A stretch of 55,000 nt of DNA. It comes from Paenibacillus bovis (GTDB lineage Bacteria; Bacillota; Bacilli; Paenibacillales; Paenibacillaceae). This document shows, one piece after another, positions 8,068 through 34,753 of this stretch (the first letter of the stretch is position 1; every line of letters begins with the position of its first letter). The position numbers were made by a program, and so were the translations under genes. The stretch lies in contig NZ_CP013023.1 of the NCBI RefSeq assembly GCF_001421015.2, forward strand, positions 737,501 through 792,500, in the 5' to 3' direction. The notes under the pieces were generated by a model. The model made no database searches. It worked only from the letters and a program-made list of their open reading frames with translations, and was not told where the DNA came from.

Positions 8068-8083
8068 GAAAGAAGGATTGCAC

Positions 8084-8668: not shown

Positions 8669-8945
8669 TCAGTCTACGACCAGAGTACAAAAGCAGTCAT
8701 TTGATTTATAACGTATACAGAAATGTATGCAAATAGGAATATACAGGATAGACCATACCTTAACTCTTGGCAGCTTCCGCCAGTAGAATGTGATTCTCTG
8801 CGGATGGCGGCAAGTTCTCGCTTGCCCGGTACAGTGTATCGCTTTTCCGGCAGTTTATCGCCTTTACAGGCGGCTGTGGAAGAGCTGTCCTGTCGGCGAA
8901 AAAGAGAACCGGGAGTTAAGGTTATTTTATTAGGAGGGGTTATTT
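8669..8945 (+). promoter_or_regulatory. Structured leader of serS (no T-box recognised)
   Basis: The 277 bases between pdxT and serS are rich in local complementarity. CTTG...CAAG plus CCGC/GCGG pairing spans roughly 8765-8815, and GTTCTC...GAGAAC spans roughly 8813-8910. The T-box core (AGGGTGGNACCGCG) is absent by eye, although serS genes of Firmicutes are often T-box controlled. The region may hold a promoter and an uncharacterised leader structure; alternatively it is only spacer. Confidence 0.35.
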
Positions 8946-10232
8946 ATGTTGGATGTTAAAATACTGCGCAATGACTATGATCGTGTAGCTACAGCGCTGC
9001 AAAATCGTGGTAAATCGCTCGATCTGATCGCAGGCTTCCCGGAGCTGGATACCAAGCGTCGTGAACTGCTGCAGGAGACAGAGCAGCTGAAAAATCGCCG
9101 GAATACCGTATCTGGAGAAGTGGCTCAGCGCAAAAAGAATAAAGAGGATGCCGAAGAACTGATTCTGGAGATGCGTCAGGTCTCCGATCGGATCAAAGCA
9201 TTGGATGAAGAAATCCGCACCCTGGAGACAGAGATCGATGCATTGACCCTGTCTATTCCAAATCTTCCGCATAGCAGTGTACCTGTAGGCGCGTCAGAAG
9301 ACGATAATGTGGAAATCCGGCGCGATGGCGAACCACGCCAGTTCGAATTCACACCGAAAGCACACTGGGATGTAGCTCAGGATCTGGGCATTCTGGACTT
9401 TGAAGCCGGAGCCAAAGTAACAGGTTCCCGTTTTACGTTCTACAAAGGAATGGGTGCACGTCTGGAACGCGCGCTGATCAACTTTATGATGGATCTGCAC
9501 AGCGAAGAGCATGGATATGAGGAGATTCTGCCTCCATACATTGTTAACCGCGATAGCCTGGTAGGTACAGGACAGCTACCGAAATTTGAGGAGGATCTGT
9601 TCAAGCTGACGGATTCTGATTATTATCTGATCCCTACTGCTGAAGTACCGGTAACCAACTATCATCGTGAAGAGATTCTGTCCAAGGAAGATCTGCCCAA
9701 GCATTATGTTGCCTACAGCTCATGCTTCCGTTCCGAAGCTGGTGCAGCTGGCCGCGATACGCGTGGTCTGATTCGTCAGCATCAATTTAACAAGGTCGAG
9801 CTGATCAAGCTGGTTGAGCCGGAGACATCCTATGAAGAGCTGGAGAAAATGACAGCCAACGCCGAGCGTGTGCTGCAGCTGCTGGGTCTGCCTTATCGTG
9901 TACTGGCACTCTGCACAGCCGATATGGGCTTCAGCGCGGCTAAAACGTACGATCTGGAAGTGTGGTTGCCGGAAAGCAATATGTACCGTGAGATCTCTTC
10001 CTGCTCGAACGTAGAGGACTTCCAGGCACGTCGTGCAAGTATCCGCTACCGCAAAGATAGCAAAGGCAAACCGGAATTCGTGCATACGCTGAATGGTTCG
10101 GGACTTGCTGTAGGACGTACTGTAGCTGCGATTCTGGAGAACTACCAGCAGGAAGACGGAAGCGTAATCGTACCTGAAGTACTGCGTCCTTACATGCGCG
10201 GTGTAGAAGTGATCGGTAACAAAACAAAATAA
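8946..10232 (+). CDS. serS: Seryl-tRNA synthetase
   Basis: A class II aminoacyl-tRNA synthetase charging tRNA-Ser (and tRNA-Sec where present). It has 428 residues, the normal length. Residues about 28-105 form the long antiparallel coiled-coil arm that contacts the tRNA variable arm. Motif 2 is [25 protein letters not shown] near residue 260 and motif 3 contains [16 protein letters not shown]. The ATG follows AGGAGGGG by 7 bases. tRNA-Ser(UGA) lies 61 bases downstream on the same strand, an arrangement also known next to B. subtilis serS. Confidence 0.97.
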
Positions 10233-17703: not shown

Positions 17704-18186
17704 TTACTCGGCTGCATAGCTGCTGTAAGAGAAGTTGCTCATTACACGCTTAGCGCCCACATAGCGGTTTTGGTAGTAGTCCATATCAATATTATCAATT
17801 CGTACGCCTTTGGATGTTGAAGCGTGTGCGAATTGACTGCTGCTTACCATAACGCCTACATGAGAAACGCCTGCCCCCGTAGTGTTGAAGAATACCAGAT
17901 CCCCAGCTTGCAGATCACTTTTGGATACAGCGTCGCCGACTTGATACTGAGAAGTCGATTGGCGAGGCAGATCGATATTCATTTGACCGAATACATATTG
18001 AGTAAATCCGGAGCAGTCAAAACCGCTAAAAGATGTTCCACCAATACGATATGGTGTACCCATGGCTGGTTCGATGATCTGGTCCATTTTGGAATTTGCG
18101 CTTGCACTGCTAGTCCCCATAACAGTAAACGCAATTGCGAATCCCATTACTGCGGCGGTTAGTTTCTTTTTCATATTCAAAATCAT
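17704..18186 (-). CDS. Secreted NlpC/P60 peptidoglycan endopeptidase
   Basis: A 160-residue exported cell-wall hydrolase that would cut the D-Glu-meso-diaminopimelate type peptide bond. Residues 1-31 are a signal peptide ending SSASAN. The catalytic domain fills the rest: Cys in GFDCSGFTQYVFG, His in GVSHVGVMV, and the third polar residue in FAHAST. No LysM or SH3 binding domain is present, so it is a single-domain enzyme. The ATG at 18186 is 4 bases after AAGGGG; an ATG at 18174 is also possible. A c-di-AMP riboswitch lies immediately upstream, fitting known control of wall hydrolases by this ligand. Confidence 0.93.
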   Translation of the reverse strand: MILNMKKKLTAAVMGFAIAFTVMGTSSASANSKMDQIIEPAMGTPYRIGGTSFSGFDCSGFTQYVFGQMNIDLPRQSTSQYQVGDAVSKSDLQAGDLVFFNTTGAGVSHVGVMVSSSQFAHASTSKGVRIDNIDMDYYQNRYVGAKRVMSNFSYSSYAAE

Positions 18187-18199
18187 TTGTCCCCTTCCA

Positions 18200-18320
18200 A
18201 TGCCTGCGAGGTTAGCTTAAGGATTCGGTAGAAGGTTTCCCCTATGATCCCTCCGAAACAAGATCAATTCACCCAAAACGGTTCCCCCGCTTCCCGGTGC
18301 CACGGAATTTGGCTTCACAC
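18200..18320 (-). ncRNA. c-di-AMP riboswitch (ydaO-yuaA type)
   Basis: Read on the minus strand the leader has the conserved blocks of this class in order: GCGGGGGAACC, GGGTGAATT, GGAGGGATCATAGG, ACCGAATCC and AGCTAACCTCGCAGGC. The class binds cyclic di-AMP and turns genes off in Firmicutes, often before wall hydrolases. The aptamer ends about 15 bases before the ATG, directly against the AAGGGG ribosome site, leaving no room for a separate intrinsic terminator. The boundaries are approximate. Confidence 0.9.
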
Positions 18321-18380
18321 TTATTGATTGCACCGTAGTCCATATTCGATTCACGACAAATTTCATCTTTTCTGACAAAA

Positions 18381-19651: not shown

Positions 19652-19660
19652 TGTTATAAT
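19652..19660 (+). promoter_or_regulatory. Extended -10 promoter candidate for the KaiC-like operon
   Basis: TGTTATAAT carries the TGn extension and a perfect -10; the -35 is poor. A second TATAAT is at 19573-19578. The implied leader is about 70 bases. Confidence 0.45.
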
Positions 19661-19736
19661 TGCTGTACAGTCATCTTCGTAGGACAAAGCTACCCCTTGC
19701 TTGACTAAAATATTCTACAGATGGAGGGAGCAGTAT

Positions 19737-21167
19737 ATGCAGAAAAAGAAGGCTGTTCAAACGGGTATACCAGGTCTGGACGATATTCTATATGGTGGAG
19801 TGCCGCCTGGAGCTGTAGTAATTTTGGAAGGTGAACCGGGAACCGGCAAAACAACATTTGGTATGCAATTTCTGGTAGAAGGTGCAGTTAAGCATAATGA
19901 ACCGGGAATTTACATTACATTCGAGGAACTTCCGGAGCAGATCTATGAGGATATGAACGGCTTTGGCTGGGATTTGCGGGATCTTGAAAGGCAGAACAAG
20001 CTGCGCGTTATTTGTATGGAACCGGATATTTTGCTGGAACAAATGCTCCAGCCTCATGGCCTGTTCGAACAGATCGTTAATGAGATCGGCTGCAAGCGGG
20101 TAGTTATTGACAGTATCAGTCTTTTTAGAATGGTGGGAGATGAAGAAAACGTACGGACGAATGTATATTCTATCCGTAATATTATGCGCAAGCATTCCTT
20201 GACTTCCTTTTTTATCCGGGAGTATTCCGAGTTTGAAGGGATGAGCATGCCTTTTGAGAACTATATTTGCGATGGGATTGTACGCCTGTCCCTCAAGCCG
20301 CTAATGGATAAATACCGCAAGCGGACGATTGAAGTATTGAAAATGCGCGGTACTCGTATTCTGGAAGGGGAACATACCTACAAGTTTATCCATAATGGCG
20401 TATATATTGTGCCTTCCCTGTCGATGGCCGAAGACAAGATGCTGATTCGCGAAGCGGAAGTGCTGTCTACCGGTATCGATTCGCTGGATGATATGCTGGC
20501 AGGTGGTATTCCACGGGGCAGTGTATTCATGATTGATACAAACAGCAAAGCCAATTACCGTTATTTGCTGTCTTCAATTTATTCCCAGCGTATCAAGGAT
20601 GACGATTGTACGGTGACGATGATGTCGGGAAATACATCGCTGGATACTTTTGCAGACACGATCGAGCTGTTTGGGGTGTCACTGCGAGAAGCAGCACGTA
20701 AAGGGAAAGCCTTCTTTATTGAACATTATCGCAGAGCAGTGGAAGCGGATCTGGAAAAAGCTATGGTTCGTGTGGATAAAGTTACTAATGAAGAGTATGC
20801 ACAGGTGCTTAACGAGCGGCTGAATCCGATTTTTGAATGTGAAGATTTGTGTGACAAGCGCTGGTTTGTATATTATGATCTGAATACGATTATTTCCGAG
20901 CGAGGAAAAGATTTCCTGCTTCGTTATTTTGCGGAAGAGATGTCGATGTGGCGCTCACTGGGTATTACCATTGTAGTACACTGTAACTTTGCCGAGATTG
21001 GTTCGGAAACGGCTTCGTTCCTTGAGCGTACATGCAATGGTGTAATTCGTACGTGGGTAGATGGTAATTACCAATATCTGCAGGTGACCAAATCTCCGAG
21101 TGGACGTGTATCTGCTCCACACATTATCGCAAATGTAGCCGAGAAACCTTTCGTACAATTGATATAA
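19737..21167 (+). CDS. KaiC-like RecA-fold ATPase with degenerate second domain
   Basis: A 476-residue cytoplasmic protein built as two KaiC/RadA-like domains in tandem. Domain 1 (about 5-230) has TGIPGLDDILYGGVPPG, a full Walker A GEPGTGKTT (32-40), the paired glutamates TFEELPE (63-64) typical of KaiC, and Walker B RVVIDSIS (121-128). Domain 2 (about 240-470) repeats the entry motif as TGIDSLDDMLAGGIPRG, but its P-loop position reads MIDTNSKANYRYL, lacking the Gly-Lys-Thr, so it probably does not hydrolyse ATP. The ATG at 19737 follows GGAGGGAG by 6 bases. It is the first gene of a three-gene unit with a winged-helix protein and a LuxR regulator. There is no KaiA or KaiB here, so a clock role is not suggested; a signal-transducing or scaffold ATPase is my inference. 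Confidence 0.85.
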   Translation: MQKKKAVQTGIPGLDDILYGGVPPGAVVILEGEPGTGKTTFGMQFLVEGAVKHNEPGIYITFEELPEQIYEDMNGFGWDLRDLERQNKLRVICMEPDILLEQMLQPHGLFEQIVNEIGCKRVVIDSISLFRMVGDEENVRTNVYSIRNIMRKHSLTSFFIREYSEFEGMSMPFENYICDGIVRLSLKPLMDKYRKRTIEVLKMRGTRILEGEHTYKFIHNGVYIVPSLSMAEDKMLIREAEVLSTGIDSLDDMLAGGIPRGSVFMIDTNSKANYRYLLSSIYSQRIKDDDCTVTMMSGNTSLDTFADTIELFGVSLREAARKGKAFFIEHYRRAVEADLEKAMVRVDKVTNEEYAQVLNERLNPIFECEDLCDKRWFVYYDLNTIISERGKDFLLRYFAEEMSMWRSLGITIVVHCNFAEIGSETASFLERTCNGVIRTWVDGNYQYLQVTKSPSGRVSAPHIIANVAEKPFVQLI

Positions 21168-21184
21168 GGAGGGATTGGGACCTT

Positions 21185-21436
21185 ATGGTGGCAGAAAGTG
21201 ATGTGATTACATTGCAGATGGAATGCACGTTATTTTTTGAAAATAACCCGTATGCGATCGAGACCAGCAACGGCTTATCCAAGCGGCTTGGCCGCAGCCA
21301 GCAGGTAACGGAACAGGCATTGAACCGTCTGGCGGAGATGTCCATTCTGGAAAAGAATGGGCAAGGGATACGTGCGATCTATCGATATAAAGCTCCTTAT
21401 ATACAGACAGAAGTGGATCTGAATGCTTATGATTGA
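21185..21436 (+). CDS. Small winged-helix-like protein in KaiC/LuxR operon
   Basis: An 83-residue protein whose whole length reads as a helix-turn-helix with a wing: FFENNPYAIETSNGLSKRLGRSQQVTEQALNRL gives three helices and the tail GQGIRAIYRYKAP a beta hairpin. It starts 17 bases after the KaiC-like stop, with AAGGAGGG 11-12 bases upstream, and its stop overlaps the start of the LuxR gene. This coupling suggests fixed stoichiometry with its partners. It may bind DNA or act as a protein adaptor; I cannot assign it to a named family. Confidence 0.75.
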   Translation: MVAESDVITLQMECTLFFENNPYAIETSNGLSKRLGRSQQVTEQALNRLAEMSILEKNGQGIRAIYRYKAPYIQTEVDLNAYD

Positions 21437-23642
21437 TACTTATATGATGAACGATACCAGAGAGATTTGTCAGGAACTTCAGGATACGTATGCCCAGCTG
21501 ACCAATCTGCTGGTCTTTGTTACCAACCATGAGGGTCAGCTGATAACGGCTCCTTCCAATATTGACGATTCCTCCGTATTTGAAAAATATAGCAGTGAAC
21601 TGCAAAACATGTTCAAGACGGAGATCGATAAACTGCAGGGCATCCGTCAGACGATTTTGTCCGATCAATGGGTACCGGGTGTAAAATGGCTGATTGCTCC
21701 TGTATCAGTAGATCAGTCCGATACAGGCATGTATGTATGGGGCGGTATACTGATTCAGCAGGGAACGCTTCAGTCCATCATTACGCATCCAAATTATGTA
21801 CAGCCGGAGAGCGGGGCACCTGCTGACTTTATTGAGTTAATGCGCAGCTGGATTCAGAATACGGGCGAAATTTCTCCCGATCAGGAGATTTTCAAGCGTG
21901 AAAAGATTACCAAGTTCGCCAAAGCGCTATCTCTTATCTTAAAATCGAGTTTCAAGGAAAACCGCTTGACCCAGCGCCTGAATGCACTCAATGAAACGCT
22001 GATTACCGAGCAAAGTATCGGGAATCCGATCGAAGAAATTACTCGTGCGGTACTGGCGAGCAGCGATCTGGCAGACGTATTCGGATTTGCACTCAAAACG
22101 GCTCCGGGCAAATATACGATCATGAACAGTATGGGCATGAATTCGGGAACGCTGGGCGGTTCGACCTTCCATGAAGGCGAAGGCTTCCTCGGACAGGCAG
22201 TACTCAGTCCGCAGTCGAGCCGCTGGAGAGATATATCGCGGGACCCAAGAAATCACTTTTTCCAGCAAAATGGGCTGGATTCGGTCTATGAAGTGCAGTG
22301 TTTCCCGATTCGTTATGAGAATGAGGTATACGGACTGTTATTTGGCCTGAGTTTCAAAGAACGCTCTACGCCAAGTATCAATCCGCAGTTTGAAGAAACG
22401 ATGATCTCCCTAATGGGCTGGTACATCGGCAACCATATTACGTACGAGAAAATGGAGAAACAGCTGCAGCGCTTCAAGCCGCTGATTGAGCTGTCCCGCA
22501 TGATTATATCGGTGCAGGATATCCAGCGTGTGATGTTCATGCTGGTCGATATGAGCCTCAATCTGGTGTGGAATCCGTCCGCCTCCATTGTGGTTCACCG
22601 TTCTTCGGAAGATGGAAAAATACAGATGGTTGCGCGCGGTATGCAGAGTCCCAAAGGGGAAACATATGCCAAGGATATCGCCCGCCGCTATCTCGACAAT
22701 AGTGATAAGCCTGCAGCGAGTTCCTTCATTAATCCGACTACTCCGTTCTCGCTGATGCTGGAATATCCGATCGTCTATGCAGACCGGACAAGAGCTGTCC
22801 TGTGCGTTGCTGTCAGCAATGAGCAGGAAGGCGAAGAATGTCGCGAGATTTTGTCGGCTCTGGCAATGATGGGCAGTGTCGTCATGAAGTCTGTTCATGA
22901 TCGGCAGCAGTATTTGTCCAACAGCAACCGGTTTGCGCATATTTTGCATGAAGCTATCCGGGAATGGAATGTTGCTCATTATCAGCTGACTGCCGATGCC
23001 CAAAAAATTGTACAGGAATTTGCTATGTGGGGCGGCATCAGCAAGGAAGAAGCCGATGTGATTGGTCGTGCCTGTCTGATGTCGTGTACCGATCCTTCCA
23101 TGCTGCGCAGCTTCCCGCATCTTTTCCAGCAGGAAGCGGAAATGATCGAGGACTACAAGCATATACATGACGACCAGAGTATTCTTGGCACCGGTTCCTA
23201 TTCCAAAGGTGGGCAGATTATGGCCCTGGCTTTTGCTATTGCAACAGCTGGCGATCATGATATGCGCGTAGTGAATGATCTGCAGATCAATGGTGTGGAT
23301 CAGGGATTAGTCAGTCAATTCCGCCTGTTTGTACTGAGCAGACATACACTTCAGACCGAAATCAATCTGGTGGAAGAGAAAGCGCCGGCAGCTAAGGCTC
23401 TTACTGCAGAAGGAGCAGAAGGCCGCGGACTGGATGCGATTGTAAAGCAGTTTGGGCTGTCTCCACGGGAGAAGGAAGTTCTGGAGCTGGTTGTCAAAGC
23501 GTCCAGCAACAAAGAAATTGCGGCTACGCTATTTATTAGTGAGCATACGGTGAAAAATCATTTAACTAATATATTTAATAAAATGGGTGTAACGGATCGT
23601 GCACAGGCGATTGCCGCTGTATTCAATAAAAGTATAGGATAA
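21423..23642 (+). CDS. LuxR-type transcriptional regulator with GAF-like sensor domains
   Basis: A 739-residue cytoplasmic regulator. Residues about 1-125 are an N-terminal sensory segment (LTNLLVFVTNHEGQLITAP, then WGGILIQQG) resembling PocR/GAF-like folds. Residues about 195-345 form a GAF-like domain (HEGEGFLGQAVLSPQSSRW, then YEVQCFPIRYENEVYGLLFGLS). Residues about 365-510 look like a second one. About 520-630 is helical and unrecognised. The C-terminal LuxR DNA-binding domain is clear: LSPREKEVLELV from residue 679, with NKEIAATLFISEHTVKNHL as the recognition part. No phospho-acceptor receiver domain is present, so it probably senses a ligand or partner. It overlaps the winged-helix gene by 14 bases (or 8 if ATG 21429 is used) and has no strong ribosome site, implying coupled translation. 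Confidence 0.88.
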   Translation: MLMIDTYMMNDTREICQELQDTYAQLTNLLVFVTNHEGQLITAPSNIDDSSVFEKYSSELQNMFKTEIDKLQGIRQTILSDQWVPGVKWLIAPVSVDQSDTGMYVWGGILIQQGTLQSIITHPNYVQPESGAPADFIELMRSWIQNTGEISPDQEIFKREKITKFAKALSLILKSSFKENRLTQRLNALNETLITEQSIGNPIEEITRAVLASSDLADVFGFALKTAPGKYTIMNSMGMNSGTLGGSTFHEGEGFLGQAVLSPQSSRWRDISRDPRNHFFQQNGLDSVYEVQCFPIRYENEVYGLLFGLSFKERSTPSINPQFEETMISLMGWYIGNHITYEKMEKQLQRFKPLIELSRMIISVQDIQRVMFMLVDMSLNLVWNPSASIVVHRSSEDGKIQMVARGMQSPKGETYAKDIARRYLDNSDKPAASSFINPTTPFSLMLEYPIVYADRTRAVLCVAVSNEQEGEECREILSALAMMGSVVMKSVHDRQQYLSNSNRFAHILHEAIREWNVAHYQLTADAQKIVQEFAMWGGISKEEADVIGRACLMSCTDPSMLRSFPHLFQQEAEMIEDYKHIHDDQSILGTGSYSKGGQIMALAFAIATAGDHDMRVVNDLQINGVDQGLVSQFRLFVLSRHTLQTEINLVEEKAPAAKALTAEGAEGRGLDAIVKQFGLSPREKEVLELVVKASSNKEIAATLFISEHTVKNHLTNIFNKMGVTDRAQAIAAVFNKSIG

Positions 23643-23709
23643 ATCACATTAATATCTTGCTGCATGGATCTATAATTGTGCGGACAAGTACAAAAGTTTA
23701 TAAATCAAA

Positions 23710-23739
23710 GGCCATCTTGCACATAAGATGGTCTTTTTT
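23710..23739 (+). terminator. Terminator after KaiC-like/LuxR operon
   Basis: GGCCATCTT and AAGATGGTC pair over 9 bp (one G-U) around GCACAT, followed by six T. It separates the regulator operon from the giant surface-protein gene. Confidence 0.82.
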
Positions 23740-23921: not shown

Positions 23922-26900
23922 ATGAGGAAAAAAGGGTATACGCTGTTTACCATGTTATTGGTAGTGGCGCTGGTATTCTCCAGCTGGCCAGGTCATGTCC
24001 AGGCAGCAGATGGAGCACTAGGTATATCTTCAGCAAATGGACAGAATGTGGCAGGCCAAAAAACAAATTTGGCTATTACGTATGCACCTGGCATTCAACT
24101 GAATCTGGCAGGCAGTACGGTATTTACCTTACCTGCAGGTATTACAGCCACTGTAGCGGACAAGTTTAACGGAACCAATCTTCCGGCGAACGCAATCAGT
24201 AGTGACGGAAGAACGATAACTTTAAACGCTTCCTTAATTGGACTCAACTTGTTGGCTTCCAATACGCTAACTTTAAATAACAAGACATTGCCTGCAGCAG
24301 GCAATTACTCTTTTGGAGCTTCTGTTAAAAATCTGTTGAATGTTACGATTGGGGAAGCAACCCAGCAGGGAACATTCACAGTGATCGGTGCAGTGCCTCC
24401 GCCGACAGCAGCACAGATCAGTGTAAGCAATGCAATCAGCGGCAATTCGACTATTACGGTTACCGGCCAAAACCCGGGAGATACCATTACCGTCTACAAC
24501 GATAAAAATGAAGTTCTCGGTACAGGTACAGTCAATGCTTCTGGACAGGCAAGCATCTCGGCAGCATTGGTTGCAGCAGGCGGCACGATTCAGGTGAGTG
24601 CGCTGCGTGGTACAGCCGAAAGTGCAAAAACCTCCTTTACCTATACAGCAGCCGTACTGAGTCCGATTCCGGCAGCTAATATCAGTGTCAGCAATTCGTA
24701 CGGCACTCAGGATAGTGTAGCTGTAACCGGACTGACCGCAGGCGATCTGGTGACAGTCTACTCCAACGGCAGTGCGATTGGTACGGGCACAGCAGACAGC
24801 AATGGAGCAGTTACCATTGCAGTAACACTGACACCGGAAGGCGGCAGCCTGAGTGTTACCCGCAAACGCAGCGGTGTAGAGAGTGCAGCGACTCCAGTCA
24901 GTTATCCGGCTCAAATTATTCCGCCGGTAGCTTCCGGTAATGTAACAGTTACCAATTCATATGGTGGAACTTCCCAGGTAACTGTCAAGAATCTGTCGAT
25001 CGGAGATATCGTTACAGTATCTGCCAACGGCACGGTTCTGGCAACAGCACCGGCAGTTACCAATACACTGACATTACCTGTTCTGCTGGAACCGGCAGGT
25101 GGCAGTCTCAATATCAGTGTAAAGCAGGGTATCCTGCAAAGTGCTACAACGACGGTTAACTATGCGGCCATTGTCGTTCCGTCGATTCTCTCCAGCAATA
25201 TTCAAGTGAAAAATCTGTCCGGAAATGCAGATGTTGTTACGGCTGTAAATCTGACAGAAGGAGATACAGTCACTGTATATGATGGCACAGGTGTACTGGG
25301 TACAGGCACAGTAGATGCGCAGGGGAAAGTCTCCATTCCTGTACAACTGCTTCCTGTAGGCGGTTCGGTCAATGTCAGTGTGAATCATGCAGGAGTGGAA
25401 AGTCTGGCGACGCCGGTTGTATATGTAGCAGAGATTGTACCTGCTATTCTGAGCAACCAGATCTCCATGTCTCCTATTTTGAATGGAACAGCAAATGTAA
25501 GTGTGAACGGCTTGAACAATGGTGATACTGTAAAAGTATATGGCAACGGTACAGTACTTGGTACTGCTACTGCAGGTGCTTCCGGAACAGTCAGTATTCC
25601 GGTGAGTGTGAATGCGCAGGGCGGGAGTCTGAGCGTGGAGCTGCTGCGTAATGGACTGGCAAGTGCTGCTACCTCCATCACGTATGGAGCAGTTGTTGTA
25701 CCACCTGTAACAGCTGCCAATATCACGGTAAGTAATAATTCCGGCAATAACGATACAGTTACCGTTACCGGACAGACACAGGGCAATCTGATCACCGTAT
25801 ATGGTAACGGTAAAGTGCTGGGTACAGCGACTGTAGGCAGTAACGGTCAGGCTGTAATCAATGCAGCACTCGTACCTGTAGGTGGTGTCATCGATGTCAG
25901 TGTAACTTCACAGGGCGTAGAGAGTGTAGTGACACCGGTTCTGTATCTGGCAGAAGTCGTGCCGGCACTGACGGCAGCAAGTGTAAATGTAGATAACAAT
26001 ACCGGCAGTCAGGATATCGTTAAAATTGGCGGCCTGAAACAGGGTGACACCGTAAAAGTATATGGCAGCGCTGATCTGCTGGGCAGTGCTGATCTGCAGG
26101 CAGACGGTACGCTAGAAGTACCTGTAACTCTGCTGCCTGTTGGCGGCAGCCTGAGTGTAGCGCTGGTGCGTAATGGTGTGGAAAGTGTGCCAACACTCGT
26201 CAGCTACAGTGCAGAGATCGTCAAACCTCTTCTGCCAGCTGCAATCAAAGTAGAGAATCTGATCGAAGCCACCTCCAAAGTAACAGTAAGTGGTCTGCAA
26301 AATGGCGATATCATCCATGTGTATGCCAATGGAGAACTGCTGGGTACGGGTACTGCGGACAGCAACGGAGTAGCTGCAGTGGATACCGATCTGGCTCCAA
26401 ATGGTGGTGTAGTAGGCGTCAGCCTGGTTCGTAATACAGTCGAGAGTCCAACTGCACAAATCAGCTACGGCTCCATTATCGTACCTGCAATTGATGCAAG
26501 TCAGGTTCAACCACAAAACAATTACGGCGATGAAGACACTGTAACCATAACCGATCTCAAAGAAGATCAGGCAATTACGGTGTATCAGGATAATGAGGTA
26601 CTGGGTACCGGCAAAGCCAATGCCAGTGGTACAGTTGTTATTGAACTGACCCTGATCCCGGCAGGCGGAGAAATGCAGGTAAGTACAGAATACCTGGGCA
26701 TTGAAAGCAGCCCGGTATCTGTATCGTATGGAGCAGAAGTCGTGCCTCCGATTCCGGCGGCAGATATTACGATTGTAAATAATGAAGGAAATATGGATAG
26801 CGTCAGTATCCGTAATCTGGTAGCAGGTGATCTTGTTACTATTTATCAAAGCAATAATGTAATCAGCACCAAAACAGCAGATACAAATGGCAATATTACG

Positions 26901-29900
26901 GCTGGTCTGACACTGCAGCCATACGGAGGTACGCTTTCTTTTACAAGAGAGCATAGCGGTATTGCCAGCATAGCTACAGATGTCGTATATACAGCAGAAC
27001 CGGGTCCGGTATTGCCTCAATCCAGTGTCAGTGTAAACAATGTGACCGGTGATGAAGATACGGTTCAAGTAACCGGATTGCAGCAAGGCGATATGATCCG
27101 TGTATATGATGCCAATGGAACACTGCTGGGCAGCGATATTGCCGGCTCATTTAACTGGGTAATGCTGCAAGTACAGCTGCTGCCCGAAGGCGGCTCCGTA
27201 TCCGTACAACTGACACGTAATCAGATGGACAGTAATATTGTAACAGTGACGTATGCGGCTGAAGAAGTTCCACCAGCCAACGCACCGGTAGCCGATATTG
27301 CTCTGGATTCCGAACAGGGAGACCAGGCGGTTATTACAGTGACAGGCATGAATGAAGGCGATATCGCCAAAGTCTATGACGATGACGATCAATTGCTTGG
27401 ATCTGCTTCGGCAAACGCAAGCGGCAAAGCGGCAGTAAGCTTCAAATTCCTCAAAGCACAGGGACGACTTTTTGCCAAAGTAGCTTCTGGTGGAGTGGAA
27501 ACTACTGTACGCAGCTTTGATTATCAGGGAATTGTATTCCCGACAACAGATCCAGTAGCAGAATTGACTGGTATAGATGGTGACCAAGGAACGGTTACAG
27601 CTACGAATATTGTTTCCGGCGATACAGTGAAAGTGTACGATGCCGATGGCAACCTGCTCGGCACACAAGTAGCCGACGGCAATGGCCAAGCAGTAGTAAA
27701 CTTTACGTTCCCGACAACCGATGGTGAACTCACTGTTACGGTAACCAGCAATGGAACCGAGACAGAGATTATAACGCTTGCATATAGTGGAGTAGAACTG
27801 CCAGTGACGCCAACACCAGCTGCCAATTTGAGCGACGTAGATGGTGATCAAGGGACAGTTACAGTCACCAATGTAACTTCCGGCGATACAGTCAAAGTGT
27901 ATGATGCCGATGGCAACCTGCTCGGCACACAAGTAGCTGACGGCAATGGCCAAGCGGTAGTGAACTTCACGTTCCCAACAACCGATGGTGAACTGACCGT
28001 GACGGTAACCAGCAATGGAACCGAGACGGAGATTACCACGCTGCCATACAGCGGAGTGGATCTTCCAGCAACGCCAGCACCAGCTGCTAACTTGAGCGAC
28101 GTAGATGGTGACCAAGGAACCGTTACAGTAACTAATGTAACTTCCGGCGATACAGTGAAAGTATACGATGCTGATGGCAACCTGCTCGGCACACAAGTAG
28201 CCGACAGCAACGGCCAAGCAGTAGTAAACTTCACGTTCCCAACAACTGATGGCGAACTGACTGTTACGGTAACCAGCAATGGAACCGAGACGGAAATTAC
28301 TACACTGCCATACAGCGGAGTAGATCTTCCAGCAACGCCAGCACCAGCCGCTAATTTGAGCGACGTAGATGGTGATCAAGGAACCGTTACAGTCACCAAT
28401 GTAACTTCCGGCGATACAGTGAAAGTGTACGATGCCGATGGCAATTTGCTTGGCACGCAAGTAGCTGACGGCAATGGCCAAGCGGTAGTAAACTTTACGT
28501 TCCCGACAACCGATGGCGAACTGACTGTTACGGTAACCAGCAATGGAACCGAAACGGAAATTACAACGCTGCCATACAACGGAGTAGATCTTCCAGCAAC
28601 GCCAGCACCAGCCGCTGATTTGAGCGACGTAGATGGTGATCAAGGAACCGTTACAGTAACTAATGTAGCTTCTGGCGATACAGTGAAAGTGTATGATGCT
28701 GATGGCAAACTGCTCGGCACACAAGTAGCCGACAGCAACGGTCAAGCAGTAGTGAACTTCACGTTCCCGACAACTGATGGCGAATTGACCGTGACGGTAA
28801 CCAGCAATGGAACCGAAACGGAGATTACAACGCTGCCATACAGCGGAGTAGATCTTCCAGCAACGCCAGCACCAGCCGCTAATTTGAGCGACGTAGATGG
28901 TGATCAAGGAACCGTTACAGTCACCAATGTAACTTCCGGCGATACAGTGAAAGTGTACGATGCCGATGGCAATTTGCTTGGCACGCAAGTAGCTGACGGC
29001 AATGGCCAAGCGGTAGTAAACTTTACGTTCCCGACAACCGATGGCGAACTGACTGTTACGGTAACCAGCAATGGAACCGAAACGGAAATTACAACGCTGC
29101 CATACAACGGAGTAGATCTTCCAGCAACGCCAGCACCAGCCGCTGATTTGAGCGACGTAGATGGTGATCAAGGAACCGTTACAGTAACTAATGTAGCTTC
29201 TGGCGATACAGTGAAAGTGTATGATGCTGATGGCAAACTGCTCGGCACACAAGTAGCCGACAGCAACGGTCAAGCAGTAGTGAACTTCACGTTCCCGACA
29301 ACTGATGGCGAATTGACCGTGACGGTAACCAGCAATGGAACCGAAACGGAGATTACAACGCTGCCATACAGCGGAGTAGAACTGCCGGCAACACAGGTAA
29401 CAGCTGAACTGGTAAATGTAACAGGGGACCAGGGAACTGTAAGTGCAAATGGAGTACAAGCAGGCGATGTTATTAATGTATACGACGAAAATGATGAACT
29501 ACTGGGAACAGCTACAGCCACTACAAGTGGACAACTAAGTATTCCGGTTACTTTTACCAAGTCTCAAGGTACACTGGTTATCCGTTTGGAACGTAATGGT
29601 TCGGTTATACTAGTAGATTCCATTAACTATTCAGATGTTGTGATCGATAATCCAGGTACCCCTTCAACACCTGATGCAGTAATTAGTGATGTGAGTGGTG
29701 ATCAGGGAACCGTAGTCGTAACAGGTGTCGGCTCAGGAGATACTGTTATTGTCTATGGTACCGACAATCAGGTACTCGCAAGCGAAGTGGCTGATGGAAA
29801 TGGTACAGCTACATTGACATTTACCTTCCCGAACGAACAAGGTGAGCTGACAGTAGTTGTAGTAACCAATGGAACCGAAACAGAAATTAAAACACTGCCA

Positions 29901-32438
29901 TACAGCGGAGTGGATTTACCAGCAACGCCAGCACCAGCCGCTGATTTGAGCAATGTAGATGGTGATCAAGGAACCGTTACAGTAACTAATGTAACTTCTG
30001 GTGATACAGTCAAAGTGTATGATGCCGATGGCAACCTGCTCGGCACACAAGTAGCCGACAGTAACGGCCAAGCAGTAGTAAACTTCACGTTCCCGACAAC
30101 CGATGGTGAACTGACTGTTACGGTAACCAGCAATGGAACCGAGACGGAAATCACCACACTGCCATACAGCGGAGTAGATTTACCAGCAACCCCAGCACCA
30201 GCCGCTGATTTGAGCGACGTAGATGGTGATCAAGGAACCGTTACAGTAACTAATGTAGCTTCTGGCGATACAGTGAAAGTGTACGATGCCGATGGCAACC
30301 TGCTCGGCACACAAGTAGCTGACAGCAACGGCCAAGCGGTAGTGAACTTCACGTTCCCGACAACTGATGGCGAACTGACTGTTACGGTAACCAGCAATGG
30401 AACCGAAACGGAAATCACCACACTCCCATACAGCGGAGTAGATGTTCCAGCAACGCCAGCACCAGCCGCTGATTTGAGCAATGTAGATGGTGATCAAGGG
30501 ACCGTTACAGTAACTAATGTAGCTTCTGGCGATACAGTGAAAGTGTACGATGCTGATGGCAACCTGCTCGGCACACAAGTAGCCGATAGTAACGGCCAAG
30601 CAGTAGTGAACTTCACGTTCCCAACAACTGATGGTGAACTGACTGTTACGGTAACCAGCAATGGAACGGAAACTGAGATTACAACGCTGCCATACAGCGG
30701 AGTAGATGTTCCAGCAACGCCAGCACCAGCCGCTGATTTGAGCAATGTAGATGGTGACCAAGGAACCGTTACAGTAACTAATGTAGCTTCCGGCGATACA
30801 GTCAAAGTTTATGATGCTGATGGCAACCTGCTCGGCACACAAGTAGCCGACGGCAATGGCCAAGCAGTAGTAAACTTCACGTTCCCGACAACCGATGGTG
30901 AACTGACCGTTACGGTAACCAGCAATGGAACGGAAACAGAAATTGCAACACTTCCTTATAATGGAGTAGAAATTCCAGGAGGAACTGACCCAGGAACCGG
31001 AGGAGGAACTGACCCAGGAACGGGTGGAGGAACTGACCCAGGAACGGGAGGAGGAACCGACCCAGGAACGGGTGGAGGAACTGATCCAGGAACGGGTGGA
31101 GGAACTGACCCAGGAACGGGTGGAGGAACCGATCCAGGAACTGGAGGAGGAACTGACCCAGGAACTGGAGGAGGAACTGATCCAGGAACGGGTGGAGGAA
31201 CCGACCCAGGAACGGGTGGAGGAACTGATCCAGGAACGGGTGGAGGAACCGACCCAGGAACGGGTGGAGGAACCGACCCAGGAACGGGAGGAGGAACCGA
31301 CCCAGGAACCGGAGGAGGAACTGACCCAGGAACTGGAGGAACTGACCCAGGAACTGGAGGAACTGACCCAGGAACTGGAGGAACTGACCCAGGAACCGGA
31401 GGAGGAACTGATCCAGAAACCGACGCAGGAAACGATGATGGCGGAACTACCGGCAGTATTCCAAGTGAAACCGGCGGAACCGTACCTGGTGAAAATGGAG
31501 GTACCGTACCGAGCGAAACCGGCGGAACTGTACCAAGTACACCAGCGGCACCAGCTAATCCTGTTACTGCAGCCACACCAACAGGCGGAACACCAGCTGC
31601 TACAACACCAGCCCCAGCTACAGCGCCTGCTACAACAACACCAGCTCCGGCAGATAATGGCGTAACCAGCGCAGCAGGTATTGGAGCAGTAACACCAGCA
31701 GCTGAAGTTGGAACTGGCGGAGGAGGTGGCGGCTCTGCTGCTACAACCCCAGCAGCAGATGCCAACACTGTAACAGCTGCAAGTGGAGAAGGTACAGCTG
31801 CTGATCTGAACGACACTGCTGACAGCTCTGTTATTACACTGAAGTCTGTTGCCAAAACTCGCTTTGTAGACGTGAATAATTCATGGGCCAAGGCAAATAT
31901 TGATCGCTTGCAGGATCTGGGTATTCTTAACGGCGTAGGCAATAACAAGTTTGATCCAAATGCAGTGATCACCCGTGCTCAGTTTACGCAAATGATCAAT
32001 AATCTGTTGCAGCTGAACGGCACATCTGCTGGAACAGCCAGCTACAAAGATGTACAAGCCAATGACTGGCACCATGATGCGATCTCGGCAGTAAGCGCAA
32101 CACGCATTACCGATGGTTATACGGACGGTACGTACCAACCGGATAAGCAGATTACACGTGAAGAAATGGCGCATATTATCAGCAACACATTGAATTATCT
32201 GGATCCTGCCGGCTCATTCGCTGCAGATTCCGCGCAGACTCTGAATGCTTTTAGCGATAAAAAACAAGTCTCCAACTGGGCTAAAGATACCCTCGCTACA
32301 GGCGTCAAAGAAAAAATTATAATGGGCAGACCAAATGGCAAGATTGCTCCAGGTGCCAATGCTACACGGGCTGAAGCAGCCACTGTAATTGCTCGTCTGA
32401 TGGATCGGATGTCATCCAAATTCAATATTACCGAATAA
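23922..32438 (+). CDS. Giant SLH-anchored surface protein with about 25 Ig-like repeat modules
   Basis: A 2838-residue exported protein. Residues 1-28 are a signal peptide (ending HVQA). About 29-160 is a beta-rich N-terminal domain. From about 162 to 2350 run about 25 modules of roughly 85-88 residues: twelve divergent ones, one intermediate, six near-identical, two divergent, then four near-identical. Each has the pattern GDTVKVYD...G...LLG followed by ELTVTVTSNGTE, a bacterial Ig-like beta sandwich. Residues about 2352-2505 are an 8-residue TDPGTGGG minisatellite, then a Pro/Thr/Ala linker, and three SLH domains from about 2646 (FVDVNNSWAKANIDRL; YKDVQANDWHHDAISA; FSDKKQVSNWAKDTL) that would bind pyruvylated wall polymer. 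I see no Cys. The start follows AGGGGAG. Likely an adhesin or matrix/S-layer-associated filament; the target is unknown. Confidence 0.9.
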   Translation: MRKKGYTLFTMLLVVALVFSSWPGHVQAADGALGISSANGQNVAGQKTNLAITYAPGIQLNLAGSTVFTLPAGITATVADKFNGTNLPANAISSDGRTITLNASLIGLNLLASNTLTLNNKTLPAAGNYSFGASVKNLLNVTIGEATQQGTFTVIGAVPPPTAAQISVSNAISGNSTITVTGQNPGDTITVYNDKNEVLGTGTVNASGQASISAALVAAGGTIQVSALRGTAESAKTSFTYTAAVLSPIPAANISVSNSYGTQDSVAVTGLTAGDLVTVYSNGSAIGTGTADSNGAVTIAVTLTPEGGSLSVTRKRSGVESAATPVSYPAQIIPPVASGNVTVTNSYGGTSQVTVKNLSIGDIVTVSANGTVLATAPAVTNTLTLPVLLEPAGGSLNISVKQGILQSATTTVNYAAIVVPSILSSNIQVKNLSGNADVVTAVNLTEGDTVTVYDGTGVLGTGTVDAQGKVSIPVQLLPVGGSVNVSVNHAGVESLATPVVYVAEIVPAILSNQISMSPILNGTANVSVNGLNNGDTVKVYGNGTVLGTATAGASGTVSIPVSVNAQGGSLSVELLRNGLASAATSITYGAVVVPPVTAANITVSNNSGNNDTVTVTGQTQGNLITVYGNGKVLGTATVGSNGQAVINAALVPVGGVIDVSVTSQGVESVVTPVLYLAEVVPALTAASVNVDNNTGSQDIVKIGGLKQGDTVKVYGSADLLGSADLQADGTLEVPVTLLPVGGSLSVALVRNGVESVPTLVSYSAEIVKPLLPAAIKVENLIEATSKVTVSGLQNGDIIHVYANGELLGTGTADSNGVAAVDTDLAPNGGVVGVSLVRNTVESPTAQISYGSIIVPAIDASQVQPQNNYGDEDTVTITDLKEDQAITVYQDNEVLGTGKANASGTVVIELTLIPAGGEMQVSTEYLGIESSPVSVSYGAEVVPPIPAADITIVNNEGNMDSVSIRNLVAGDLVTIYQSNNVISTKTADTNGNITAGLTLQPYGGTLSFTREHSGIASIATDVVYTAEPGPVLPQSSVSVNNVTGDEDTVQVTGLQQGDMIRVYDANGTLLGSDIAGSFNWVMLQVQLLPEGGSVSVQLTRNQMDSNIVTVTYAAEEVPPANAPVADIALDSEQGDQAVITVTGMNEGDIAKVYDDDDQLLGSASANASGKAAVSFKFLKAQGRLFAKVASGGVETTVRSFDYQGIVFPTTDPVAELTGIDGDQGTVTATNIVSGDTVKVYDADGNLLGTQVADGNGQAVVNFTFPTTDGELTVTVTSNGTETEIITLAYSGVELPVTPTPAANLSDVDGDQGTVTVTNVTSGDTVKVYDADGNLLGTQVADGNGQAVVNFTFPTTDGELTVTVTSNGTETEITTLPYSGVDLPATPAPAANLSDVDGDQGTVTVTNVTSGDTVKVYDADGNLLGTQVADSNGQAVVNFTFPTTDGELTVTVTSNGTETEITTLPYSGVDLPATPAPAANLSDVDGDQGTVTVTNVTSGDTVKVYDADGNLLGTQVADGNGQAVVNFTFPTTDGELTVTVTSNGTETEITTLPYNGVDLPATPAPAADLSDVDGDQGTVTVTNVASGDTVKVYDADGKLLGTQVADSNGQAVVNFTFPTTDGELTVTVTSNGTETEITTLPYSGVDLPATPAPAANLSDVDGDQGTVTVTNVTSGDTVKVYDADGNLLGTQVADGNGQAVVNFTFPTTDGELTVTVTSNGTETEITTLPYNGVDLPATPAPAADLSDVDGDQGTVTVTNVASGDTVKVYDADGKLLGTQVADSNGQAVVNFTFPTTDGELTVTVTSNGTETEITTLPYSGVELPATQVTAELVNVTGDQGTVSANGVQAGDVINVYDENDELLGTATATTSGQLSIPVTFTKSQGTLVIRLERNGSVILVDSINYSDVVIDNPGTPSTPDAVISDVSGDQGTVVVTGVGSGDTVIVYGTDNQVLASEVADGNGTATLTFTFPNEQGELTVVVVTNGTETEIKTLPYSGVDLPATPAPAADLSNVDGDQGTVTVTNVTSGDTVKVYDADGNLLGTQVADSNGQAVVNFTFPTTDGELTVTVTSNGTETEITTLPYSGVDLPATPAPAADLSDVDGDQGTVTVTNVASGDTVKVYDADGNLLGTQVADSNGQAVVNFTFPTTDGELTVTVTSNGTETEITTLPYSGVDVPATPAPAADLSNVDGDQGTVTVTNVASGDTVKVYDADGNLLGTQVADSNGQAVVNFTFPTTDGELTVTVTSNGTETEITTLPYSGVDVPATPAPAADLSNVDGDQGTVTVTNVASGDTVKVYDADGNLLGTQVADGNGQAVVNFTFPTTDGELTVTVTSNGTETEIATLPYNGVEIPGGTDPGTGGGTDPGTGGGTDPGTGGGTDPGTGGGTDPGTGGGTDPGTGGGTDPGTGGGTDPGTGGGTDPGTGGGTDPGTGGGTDPGTGGGTDPGTGGGTDPGTGGGTDPGTGGGTDPGTGGTDPGTGGTDPGTGGTDPGTGGGTDPETDAGNDDGGTTGSIPSETGGTVPGENGGTVPSETGGTVPSTPAAPANPVTAATPTGGTPAATTPAPATAPATTTPAPADNGVTSAAGIGAVTPAAEVGTGGGGGGSAATTPAADANTVTAASGEGTAADLNDTADSSVITLKSVAKTRFVDVNNSWAKANIDRLQDLGILNGVGNNKFDPNAVITRAQFTQMINNLLQLNGTSAGTASYKDVQANDWHHDAISAVSATRITDGYTDGTYQPDKQITREEMAHIISNTLNYLDPAGSFAADSAQTLNAFSDKKQVSNWAKDTLATGVKEKIIMGRPNGKIAPGANATRAEAATVIARLMDRMSSKFNITE
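24408..27540 (+). repeat. Twelve divergent Ig-like modules (protein-level repeat)
   Basis: Modules begin about every 255-267 bases with a pattern such as AANISVSNSYG...DSVAVTGL...GDLVTVY and end with TPVSYPAQIIPP-like linkers. They differ strongly at DNA level, so they are old duplications. Confidence 0.8.
27541..30974 (+). repeat. Near-identical 264-bp modules, in two blocks around two divergent modules
   Basis: The 88-residue unit (DVDGDQGTV...GDTVKVYDADG...FPTTDGELTV...LPYSGVDLPATPAPA) recurs at a 264-base period. One intermediate copy and six close copies occupy about 27550-29390, two divergent modules about 29391-29930, and four close copies about 29931-30974. Protein differences are few (VTS/VAS, GN/KL, DG/DS), while synonymous codon differences are scattered in mosaic fashion. 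Confidence 0.9.
28306..29383 (+). repeat. Perfect 528-bp tandem duplication (two-module unit)
   Basis: Bases 28306 to about 28855 are repeated at +528 (28834 to about 29383). Line-by-line reading found no difference until GTAGATCTT versus GTAGAACTG at the right end. The repeated unit is exactly two 264-bp modules. Confidence 0.85.
30976..31420 (+). repeat. 24/21-bp minisatellite encoding TDPGTGGG
   Basis: Eighteen TDPGTG units and one TDPET unit are counted. The first fifteen units have a 24-base period (GGAACTGACCCAGGAACGGG type), and the next three a 21-base period. Codon variants GAC/GAT, ACT/ACC and GGT/GGA alternate. The region encodes a flexible spacer between the Ig-like shaft and the SLH anchor. 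Confidence 0.93.
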
Positions 32439-32728: not shown

Positions 32729-34753
32729 ATGCAATATATACATGCACACTATAATCCTTATATCGTAACGCTATCTGTTCTTATCGCTATTCTGGCTTCC
32801 TATATAGCATTGAATATCGTCGGCAAGGTCGGCCAGTCCACTGGCAGGAACAAGGCACTATGGACAGGTCTGGGCGCCTTTGTTATGGGCAATGGGATCT
32901 GGTCTATGCATTTTATCGGTATGCTGGCTTTGGAGGCAGACATCAGCATGAGCTACGATCTGAAAATTGTCGCTCTGTCTGCTGTATTTAGCATTCTGGC
33001 TTCACTGATTGCTTTTTACGTGACACTGGATGCAGTGACCCGGCTCTGGAAAATAAGCCTGGGTGGTGCGCTTATGGGTGCGGGTATTGTGGCAATGCAC
33101 TACACCGGCATGGCTGCTCTCCATACAGCGGTCATGATCACATATGATCCAGTCTACTGGCTATTGTCACTGGCTGCTGCTTTGATGGCTTCCTATGCAG
33201 CCCTACTTCTTTTTCGTCGTTTTCGTAATCATCCGGGCTTCAGTATCTGGAAATTCTACAGTGCTGTCGTTATGGGACTCGCAATCTCCGGGATGCATTA
33301 CGTAGGCATGGCGGCGACCCAGTTTCATTACACCCGGCAGGAATTGCAGAGCGCGCCTCCGGCAGGCCAGATGCTGTTGATTTCTGCAGTAGCGATTGTG
33401 ACGCTGTTTATTCTGGCGGCTTCGTGGGCGGCCGTATTTGTGGAGAAACATGTGCTGGAACGTATGGCATACAGTGATCCGCTGACCGGCCTGCCGAACC
33501 GTCATGGACTGCAGCGTTATTTTACCAAGGAATTTACAGCGCAGACCGAAGGAGCAGTTCTGTTTCTCGATCTGGATCGTTTCAAATCGATCAATGACAC
33601 GCTGGGTCACGATGTAGGGGATGAACTACTAATAGAAGTATCCAAAAGACTACAGCTCTGTACCCAGAATCAGGGTATTGTTTTCCGGCTCGGCGGTGAT
33701 GAATTCCTGATTGCATCCAGTTCAGGCTCTGTCGATACGACGATTCAATTGGCGGAATCCATACTGGATTCGATCAAGCAGCCTTACCATCTCGCTAACA
33801 ACCAGCTGTTCATTACAGGCAGTATCGGTATCGCGCTTGTCCCGCAGCATGGATTTGAACGCACTTTTCTGATGCGGGCTGCGGATACCGCGATGTATGT
33901 ATCCAAAAACACCGGCAAGAACAAGTACAGCATTTTTAGTGAAGATATGAATCAGCGTCAGATTCGCCGGATGGAGCTGGAGAAAGATCTGCGTAATGCC
34001 CAGGAGCAGGAAGAATTCTTTATTGTGTATCAGCCCAAATGGGATTCCCTGCATAATCGGCTGACAGGGATGGAAGCGCTGCTGCGCTGGAAGCATCCAC
34101 AGCTGGGTATTGTATCTCCTGGAGAATTTATCCCTATTGCCGAAGAGACAGGCCTTATTATCCCCATGACAGACTGGATTCTGGAAAAGGTGTGCGAGCA
34201 GAACAAGATCTGGCAGCAGCAGGCAGATATTTATATACCGATCTCGGTTAATATGTCTGCGCGTATGTTTGAATGCTCTGCCTTTCCCGAACGTATTGCC
34301 CGGATTCTGGCCGATACCGGACTGGAGCCTCAATATCTGGAACTGGAGATCACGGAATCTATTGCGATGAACGGAATCGAAGGCACCGTTGAACAGCTGC
34401 AGCAGATTCAGCAGCAGGGCGTGGGCATTTCGCTGGACGACTTTGGTACAGGATATTCTTCGTTAGGCAGTCTGGATGAGATGCCGGTCGATATTATCAA
34501 AATCGATCAGGTATTTGTCCGTAATATTGATCATGCATCCAAACAGTCGATTATTAGCACCATTATCGCTATCGCCTATAATCTGAATATGGAGATGGTT
34601 GCAGAAGGCGTGGAGACGGTTGAACAGATTCAATTCCTCCAATCCAAAGGCTGTTTTATTATGCAGGGTTATTATTATGGCAAGCCGATGACCGTGGAAC
34701 AAATGAATCAATGGCTGGAACAGTCAGCCGATCAGATACCGCTGGCGGAGTAA
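32729..34753 (+). CDS. MHYT-GGDEF-EAL membrane protein (cyclic di-GMP turnover)
   Basis: A 674-residue membrane-bound signalling enzyme. Residues about 1-245 form an MHYT sensor of seven membrane helices, with the motif repeated as SMHFIGMLAL, AMHYTGMAAL and GMHYVGMAA; this sensor is proposed to bind copper and sense a gas such as O2, CO or NO. The GGDEF domain (about 250-405) has an intact RLGGDEFLI; no RxxD inhibitory site is seen upstream. The EAL domain (about 425-665) keeps MEALLRW, NMSARMF, the DDFGTGYSS loop and AEGVET, so both diguanylate cyclase and phosphodiesterase activities are possible. AAGGAGGG precedes the ATG by 10 bases. The stop codon lies in the loop of its terminator. Confidence 0.92.
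   Translation: MQYIHAHYNPYIVTLSVLIAILASYIALNIVGKVGQSTGRNKALWTGLGAFVMGNGIWSMHFIGMLALEADISMSYDLKIVALSAVFSILASLIAFYVTLDAVTRLWKISLGGALMGAGIVAMHYTGMAALHTAVMITYDPVYWLLSLAAALMASYAALLLFRRFRNHPGFSIWKFYSAVVMGLAISGMHYVGMAATQFHYTRQELQSAPPAGQMLLISAVAIVTLFILAASWAAVFVEKHVLERMAYSDPLTGLPNRHGLQRYFTKEFTAQTEGAVLFLDLDRFKSINDTLGHDVGDELLIEVSKRLQLCTQNQGIVFRLGGDEFLIASSSGSVDTTIQLAESILDSIKQPYHLANNQLFITGSIGIALVPQHGFERTFLMRAADTAMYVSKNTGKNKYSIFSEDMNQRQIRRMELEKDLRNAQEQEEFFIVYQPKWDSLHNRLTGMEALLRWKHPQLGIVSPGEFIPIAEETGLIIPMTDWILEKVCEQNKIWQQQADIYIPISVNMSARMFECSAFPERIARILADTGLEPQYLELEITESIAMNGIEGTVEQLQQIQQQGVGISLDDFGTGYSSLGSLDEMPVDIIKIDQVFVRNIDHASKQSIISTIIAIAYNLNMEMVAEGVETVEQIQFLQSKGCFIMQGYYYGKPMTVEQMNQWLEQSADQIPLAE

Follow-up and report, generated by a model that had tools for sequence, protein, structure and literature searches.

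A three-gene unit of Paenibacillus bovis, lying in a 55,000-nucleotide stretch of its genome (contig NZ_CP013023.1, positions 737,501 to 792,500 of the forward strand; hereafter the window), encodes a KaiC-like ATPase, a small winged helix-turn-helix protein (wHTH) and a LuxR-type regulator, and, placed beside adhesion genes, probably constitutes an undescribed switch between the free and the attached state in Paenibacillus and Bacillus relatives. The trio is a conserved unit with near certainty, and we consider the chances about even that it controls surface attachment as a transcription switch gated by the ATPase, in which the wHTH serves as adaptor. The genes and their principal parts are as follows.

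19737..21167, forward strand: KaiC-like gene, 476 residues, two RecA/KaiC domains (PF06745, 215.6 bits over two stretches; matches to KaiC in the PDB)
19827..19856, forward strand: Walker A motif EGEPGTGKTT of the first KaiC domain, GKT in 50/50 relatives
20535..20558, forward strand: DTNSKANY in place of the second-domain P-loop, by comparison with relatives
21185..21436, forward strand: mini winged-helix (wHTH) gene, 83 residues, AlphaFold2 model, conserved in relatives
21423..23642, forward strand: LuxR-type regulator gene (luxR), 739 residues, with PocR-like, GAF, GAF, dead HD-GYP and GerE domains, from the GerE match and model folds
22935..23342, forward strand: degenerate, shortened HD-GYP domain, about regulator residues 505-640
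23457..23615, forward strand: GerE/LuxR DNA-binding domain, PF00196, residues 679-731

The KaiC-like frame runs from an ATG at 19737 to a stop at 21167, with a further in-frame TTG at 19701; 17 bases separate its stop from the wHTH start, and luxR, which stops at 23642, overlaps the wHTH gene by 14 bases from the ATG at 21423 or by 8 from the ATG at 21429, a reading that confirms the tight same-strand spacing reported in the first-pass annotation, made from the sequence alone. In a family set of 148 genomes (thresholds E<=1e-20 for KaiC, E<=0.001 for wHTH and E<=1e-15 for LuxR), KaiC matched in 17 genomes, wHTH in 17 and LuxR in 30; the KaiC and wHTH genomes were the identical 17, each with an adjoining LuxR gene in the same order. 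When a single genome of each species was scanned, with KaiC as the sole query and two search patterns, one of them D[TS]NSKANY, the yield was 66 pattern-matching stretches, of which 52 encoded a KaiC relative, at 51 distinct named loci, and in 51/51 the wHTH and LuxR genes followed KaiC in the same order; this count includes L066, whose luxR is cut at a contig end, and L090, whose frames are broken, and the two sets share several genomes and are not independent. The named loci belong to Paenibacillus, Saccharibacillus, Brevibacillus, Cohnella, Cytobacillus, Oceanobacillus, Robertmurraya, Halalkalibacter and other genera, which we take to be members of the Bacillales throughout, and one comes from an uncultured Bacillaceae bacterium; the closest relatives, Paenibacillus dauci and P. 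wulumuqiensis, share 97% KaiC identity with the window. The annotation had proposed a linked regulatory unit and had named rare adjacency in relatives as the finding that would contradict it; linkage and unit hold, and adjacency was clearly the rule in both sets.

Some loci carry further genes around the trio. L058, L086 and L088 have a second, diverged winged-helix gene copy behind luxR; L079 has a second full-length regulator paralogue, divergently oriented, just upstream (7678-9834, reverse strand), and L076 looks similar; by eye, a degS-degU-like gene pair lies directly upstream in Cohnella pontilimi (L086, 7757-9650).

The window's KaiC-like protein belongs to the KaiC family, its PF06745 score standing against a cut-off of 26.6 bits, and among seven PF06745 matches in its own 5.5-Mb genome the trio gene alone is strong (199 bits; next 34.7). 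Motifs were counted in 50 KaiC frames longer than 400 residues from the named loci, L090 being excluded for its broken frames. In the first domain all 50 keep the Walker A GKT, the paired glutamates and the aspartate of Walker B, and at the P-loop position of the second domain 48 carry D[TS]NSKANY, a frequency that is partly by construction because the motif is one of the two search patterns; the remaining two, DTNSRANY in L083 and DTNSKSNY in L092, entered the set through the other pattern. The motif also occurs in all 10 rows from genomes found by whole-protein search, which are unbiased by the pattern, and from this alignment evidence it looks to be under selection rather than decayed. The annotation's description of one intact KaiC domain followed by one without a P-loop agrees with these counts.

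The regulator falls within the LuxR/GerE family through its C-terminal helix-turn-helix (HTH; PF00196, 72.6 against a cut-off of 23.5 bits), and its PocR and GAF domains, below cut-off in the window, exceed it in the relative L061; no receiver domain occurs among its Pfam matches up to E 1. Domain folds were compared in a structural model with a mean predicted local distance difference test score (pLDDT) of 81.7, which, by a VIA-align warning, is barely tested outside residues 177-492. Profile-profile comparison, fold comparison and the intermediate locus L129 each point to common fold and ancestry with HD-GYP, indicating that this part of the regulator descends from an HD-GYP phosphodiesterase of cyclic di-GMP (c-di-GMP) fused to a LuxR HTH. 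Neither catalytic motif, HDxGK or GxGYP, is kept in any of 49 trio regulators longer than 600 residues, and the metal/nucleotide loops of the domain are deleted.

The 83-residue protein has a winged-helix fold in its AlphaFold2 model (43 alignment rows, pLDDT 90), with helices (H) and strands (E) in the order H-E-H-H-E-E, and matches no Pfam family over its cut-off. Foldseek returned weak matches only (best E 2.4e-3), including Z-alpha (Z-DNA-binding) domains and ArsR-type repressors.

The association of wHTH with KaiC extends beyond the family. At stricter thresholds (KaiC E<=1e-40, wHTH E<=1e-5) KaiC was found in 17 of 348 genomes of the phylum and wHTH in 19, with one hit each, and 15 genomes were shared (Fisher p 7e-21, relatedness ignored); the four wHTH-only genomes were counted as misses, among them G551, whose KaiC operon is cut by a contig end (L131). 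In the order, KaiC occurred in 20/198 genomes and wHTH in 22/198, all 20 KaiC genomes being shared. The wHTH lies in the KaiC neighbourhood in 12 of 15 KaiC genomes outside the genus, or 13 with G311, where KaiC is cut at a contig end and continues on another contig with wHTH; it is absent from that neighbourhood in G622 and G373. No LuxR-family regulator was present in the fetched wHTH and KaiC stretches of 13 of these 15 genomes. One row type reads KaiC, small KaiC, V4R-like protein, wHTH and PAS histidine kinase (L118, by Pfam, V4R just below cut-off), another wHTH, KaiC, small KaiC and V4R protein (L114, by Pfam); for the other phylum loci the rows rest on profile matches and gene positions. 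G350 (L115) has a KaiC whose second domain is degenerate, oriented divergently to a wHTH gene and an intact GAF-HD-GYP protein; a weak LuxR-profile match had made this locus a candidate trio, which we rejected, the partner being a GAF-HD-GYP protein with no HTH. Four stretches contain no KaiC: LuxR-wHTH in G256 (L111), wHTH-HD-GYP-LuxR in G392 (L129), wHTH with a protein of PAS-like appearance in G382 (L130), and wHTH-LuxR in G152 (L112), where by eye a phosphate-transporter gene precedes and an HD-GYP-type gene follows. The neighbours in L112 (6455-10088) look by eye like those in L059, with wHTH and LuxR remaining and KaiC alone apparently lost. By these gene comparisons the wHTH is a shared part of otherwise different assemblies, and as their common denominator it is termed an adaptor here, a role that it may play.

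Downstream of the trio, the window contains three further features.

23708..23735, forward strand: intrinsic-terminator-like hairpin with T run, 3' of luxR (scan without shuffle control)
23922..32438, forward strand: giant repeat surface protein gene, 2838 residues, with BslA-like N-terminus, immunoglobulin-like repeats and three SLH domains (Pfam), putative output gene
32729..34753, forward strand: MHYT-GGDEF-EAL c-di-GMP-type protein gene (Pfam), putative output or partner gene

Genes of these kinds were sought within 7 kb on each side of the 51 named loci, L055 being left out of one tally. A c-di-GMP-type or attachment gene lies downstream in 41 loci and upstream in 5, and among 45 loci with the full 7 kb on either side the figures are 36 and 4. 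Some loci contribute to more than one downstream class: GGDEF/EAL in 18, HD-GYP-type in 9, a Tad-pilus operon in 8 (identified by Pfam, one member per cluster) and a giant surface protein in 8, compared with 3, 2, 0 and 0 upstream. GGDEF alone occurs downstream in 17 loci, covering nine named genera by record titles, and upstream in 3; the expectation for 51 loci is about 1.1 at the median density of 24 genomes (G629, a duplicate of G128, being dropped) and 2.3 at the highest, so that the downstream count is 7 to 15 times expectation, relatedness ignored. Among downstream frames GG[DE]EF is intact in 19/21 tagged as GGDEF and ExLxR in 15/16 tagged as EAL. The window's own arrangement recurs, with a relative of the giant surface protein right after the trio in 8/51 loci and a relative of the MHYT-GGDEF-EAL protein directly after it in L026, L038 and L039. 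In Cohnella pontilimi (L086) an EAL gene is present, and the row behind the trio also holds a GGDEF gene and, judged from clusters in which a member was tested, FapA and PilZ genes.

For the attachment link, the HD-GYP-type neighbours count for less than GGDEF. The HD dipeptide is kept in four of nine loci (L076, L077, L083, L085), and in L056, L059, L079, L081 and L090 its H is lost and HHE...GxG kept; across the cluster the dipeptide occurs in 6/11 members and the HHE...GxG stretch in 11/11, as GYP in 8. In several Paenibacillus loci these neighbours lie in a shared region beside an EcsB-type transporter gene. A Spo0E-like gene stands between the trio and a GGDEF-EAL gene in Robertmurraya L063, L070 and L072 (Pfam on the L063 member) and behind the trio in L080, where there is no GGDEF gene, which hints that the unit may be connected with the control of sporulation.

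Two features precede the KaiC-like gene.

19655..19660, forward strand: TATAAT, likely operon -10 box, TTGTTATAATT, identical in 5/5 aligned (window and four relatives)
19661..19736, forward strand: leader from promoter to KaiC-like start, conserved in the window and four relatives

From its conservation the TATAAT is likely the -10 box of the trio operon promoter; this promoter and that of the giant gene were aligned separately, and we claim no shared motif. Several GGA motifs can be seen by eye in the leader. A riboswitch there was considered and dropped, since an Rfam search of the leader gave no match up to E 5 and its fold was no better than that of shuffled sequences (z -0.57). Elsewhere in the window, a cyclic di-AMP riboswitch (RF00379, 69.2 bits, 18186-18324, reverse strand) lies just before an NlpC/P60 gene (17704-18186), a familiar type of arrangement.

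In the mechanism that we propose, the KaiC-like protein would form a ring in which the first-domain ATPase moves through a cycle of states, and the second domain, its P-loop traded for a conserved DTNSKANY surface, would bind the wHTH, which would link the ring to the LuxR-type regulator and through which the ring would present or withhold that factor. The regulator would integrate signals by way of its PocR, two GAF and catalytically dead HD-GYP domains, its ligand and any residual c-di-GMP binding being putative, and would activate or repress the neighbouring c-di-GMP-type, Tad-pilus or giant SLH-protein genes. The first-pass annotation had ventured that ATP-driven assembly may gate a transcription factor, and such gating may indeed occur; its overall interpretation stands for the linkage, the intact and degenerate KaiC domains and the regulatory unit, and it had overlooked the dead HD-GYP domain, the c-di-GMP and adhesion neighbourhood and the wHTH as a shared part. 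A fuller version, in which the factor reads c-di-GMP by its dead HD-GYP domain, energy state and messenger are joined to decide on attachment, and a dedicated wHTH adaptor serves LuxR-factor, HD-GYP-enzyme and histidine-kinase outputs across Bacillota, would be a hitherto undescribed signalling system and is, in our estimate, doubtful.

Several observations weigh against the attachment switch. LuxR relatives without a KaiC match are common (13/30 LuxR genomes of the family), and the charge of the wHTH was dropped as a sign of DNA versus protein binding, being mixed across 55 members. Deletion of the metal/nucleotide loops means that c-di-GMP binding may be gone altogether; a single-profile search matched 0/38 regulator members to an HD family, and a PDB sequence search with the regulator matched no HD protein, so that the HD-GYP assignment rests on the profile-profile comparison, the fold and L129. 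With the HD dipeptide kept in so few HD-GYP-type neighbours, several may not be enzymes, although this leaves our estimate unchanged because neither the count of GGDEF/EAL genes nor the ancestry of the regulator depends on it. Because the downstream genes had already been viewed when the Tad and giant classes were drawn up, the upstream comparison is weaker for these two. No sought gene lies within 7 kb downstream in ten loci (L047, L050, L052, L060, L066, L080, L082, L084, L087, L089), five of which have one upstream (L060, L066, L082, L084, L087). A terminator-like hairpin between luxR and the next gene, found in 34/50 loci and the window with no control, indicates that the neighbouring genes do not simply belong to the operon.

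The wHTH could instead be a second DNA-binding protein, co-binding neighbouring promoters with LuxR while KaiC sequesters or remodels one of the two, and its modelled recognition-type helix and wing, its weak Foldseek neighbours among Z-DNA-binding domains and ArsR-type repressors, and an isoelectric point above 8 in 16/55 members would suit that role; we think it rather unlikely, as the isoelectric point is below 6 in 33/55 members and 4.85 in the window's protein, no Foldseek match reaches E<=0.001, and persistence of the wHTH with a histidine kinase, an HD-GYP protein or LuxR better suits a protein adaptor. That the trio is real and its targets lie elsewhere, for example in stress or metabolism, with the attachment genes merely sharing a chromosomal neighbourhood, would fit the ten loci just named, including four of Saccharibacillus (L047, L050, L052, L089) that have a LysR-regulator-like gene by eye and others downstream instead, as well as the EcsB-type region shared by Paenibacillus HD-GYP-type neighbours, 5/9 of which lost the HD dipeptide. 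Against it, the c-di-GMP and adhesion classes differ from genus to genus and favour the downstream side over the upstream, GGDEF genes exceed expectation severalfold, the regulator is itself of HD-GYP descent, and Cohnella pontilimi combines EAL, FapA, PilZ and GGDEF genes, and we consider targets elsewhere unlikely. A circadian or other KaiABC-type timer, suggested by the two-domain KaiC homology, is highly improbable, and we rejected it: the protein scores 133.8 bits on circ_KaiC (cut-off 546) and 193.9 on PRK09302 (cut-off 408), its second, kinase-type domain has no P-loop, and the best KaiB match in its own genome reaches 24.1 bits against a cut-off of 27; for KaiA no search was made. Weak KaiB matches occur in 38/39 genomes, over cut-off in 8 (its own genome not among them) with a maximum of 28 bits, and are probably thioredoxin-like cross-matches. 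By Pfam, none of the three proteins has a receiver or kinase domain.

To our knowledge, KaiC-like ATPases are widespread outside cyanobacteria and their partners mostly unknown, and KaiC-like signalling hubs of archaea were reportedly described by Makarova, Galperin and Koonin in 2017. The GvpD/GvpE system is not known to have a wHTH adaptor or a GAF/HD-GYP sensor. Cyanobacterial KaiC resembles the trio protein in its two RecA-type domains and intact ATPase motifs in the first domain (CI), whereas the trio has no KaiB over cut-off in its own genome, a replaced P-loop in the second domain (CII), and wHTH and LuxR partners. In archaeal hubs, too, a KaiC-like ATPase is linked with a regulator of transcription and has a bearing on motility or lifestyle: as far as the available part of the paper goes, CirA of Haloferax volcanii has a regulon in common with CsmR and acts in archaeal motility (PMC13286277), whereas the trio is bacterial, CsmR is Lrp/AsnC-like, and that part mentions no dead HD-GYP. 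In haloarchaea GvpD, a P-loop protein, controls the activator GvpE by protein contact and causes its breakdown, the GvpD P-loop being needed according to a reference title (PMC4390858); GvpE is degraded there, which distinguishes it from the trio, and the window's protein matches PF07088 weakly (23.4 bits, below the cut-off of 24). On the regulator's side stands DvhD of Desulfovibrio vulgaris, a catalytically dead HD-GYP that is a c-di-GMP receptor controlling large adhesins (PMC13090378), a membrane receptor acting on a protease in contrast to the DNA-binding trio regulator with its putative c-di-GMP binding; SLUN_31535 of Streptomyces lunaelactis, which likewise combines HD-GYP with a LuxR HTH, has its GYP residues missing and comes with no mention of PocR/GAF, wHTH or KaiC in the text available (PMC6205966); and BcsE, which similarly unites a degenerate signalling domain (GGDEF) with a predicted RecA/KaiC-like fold and controls biofilm cellulose, yet is a single protein and not a LuxR factor (PMC7439463). 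In a search of open-access literature we recognised no paper as describing the trio; a KaiC-like signalling hub is an already known kind of system, and, as far as literature searches go, this set of partners, among them a LuxR factor whose HD-GYP is dead, is undescribed.

The trio names a partner set for a KaiC-like ATPase in growable bacteria and connects this set with attachment and c-di-GMP-type genes. It also offers a traceable case of an HD-GYP phosphodiesterase domain that has become part of a transcription factor, and it makes a KaiC role without KaiA/KaiB directly testable.

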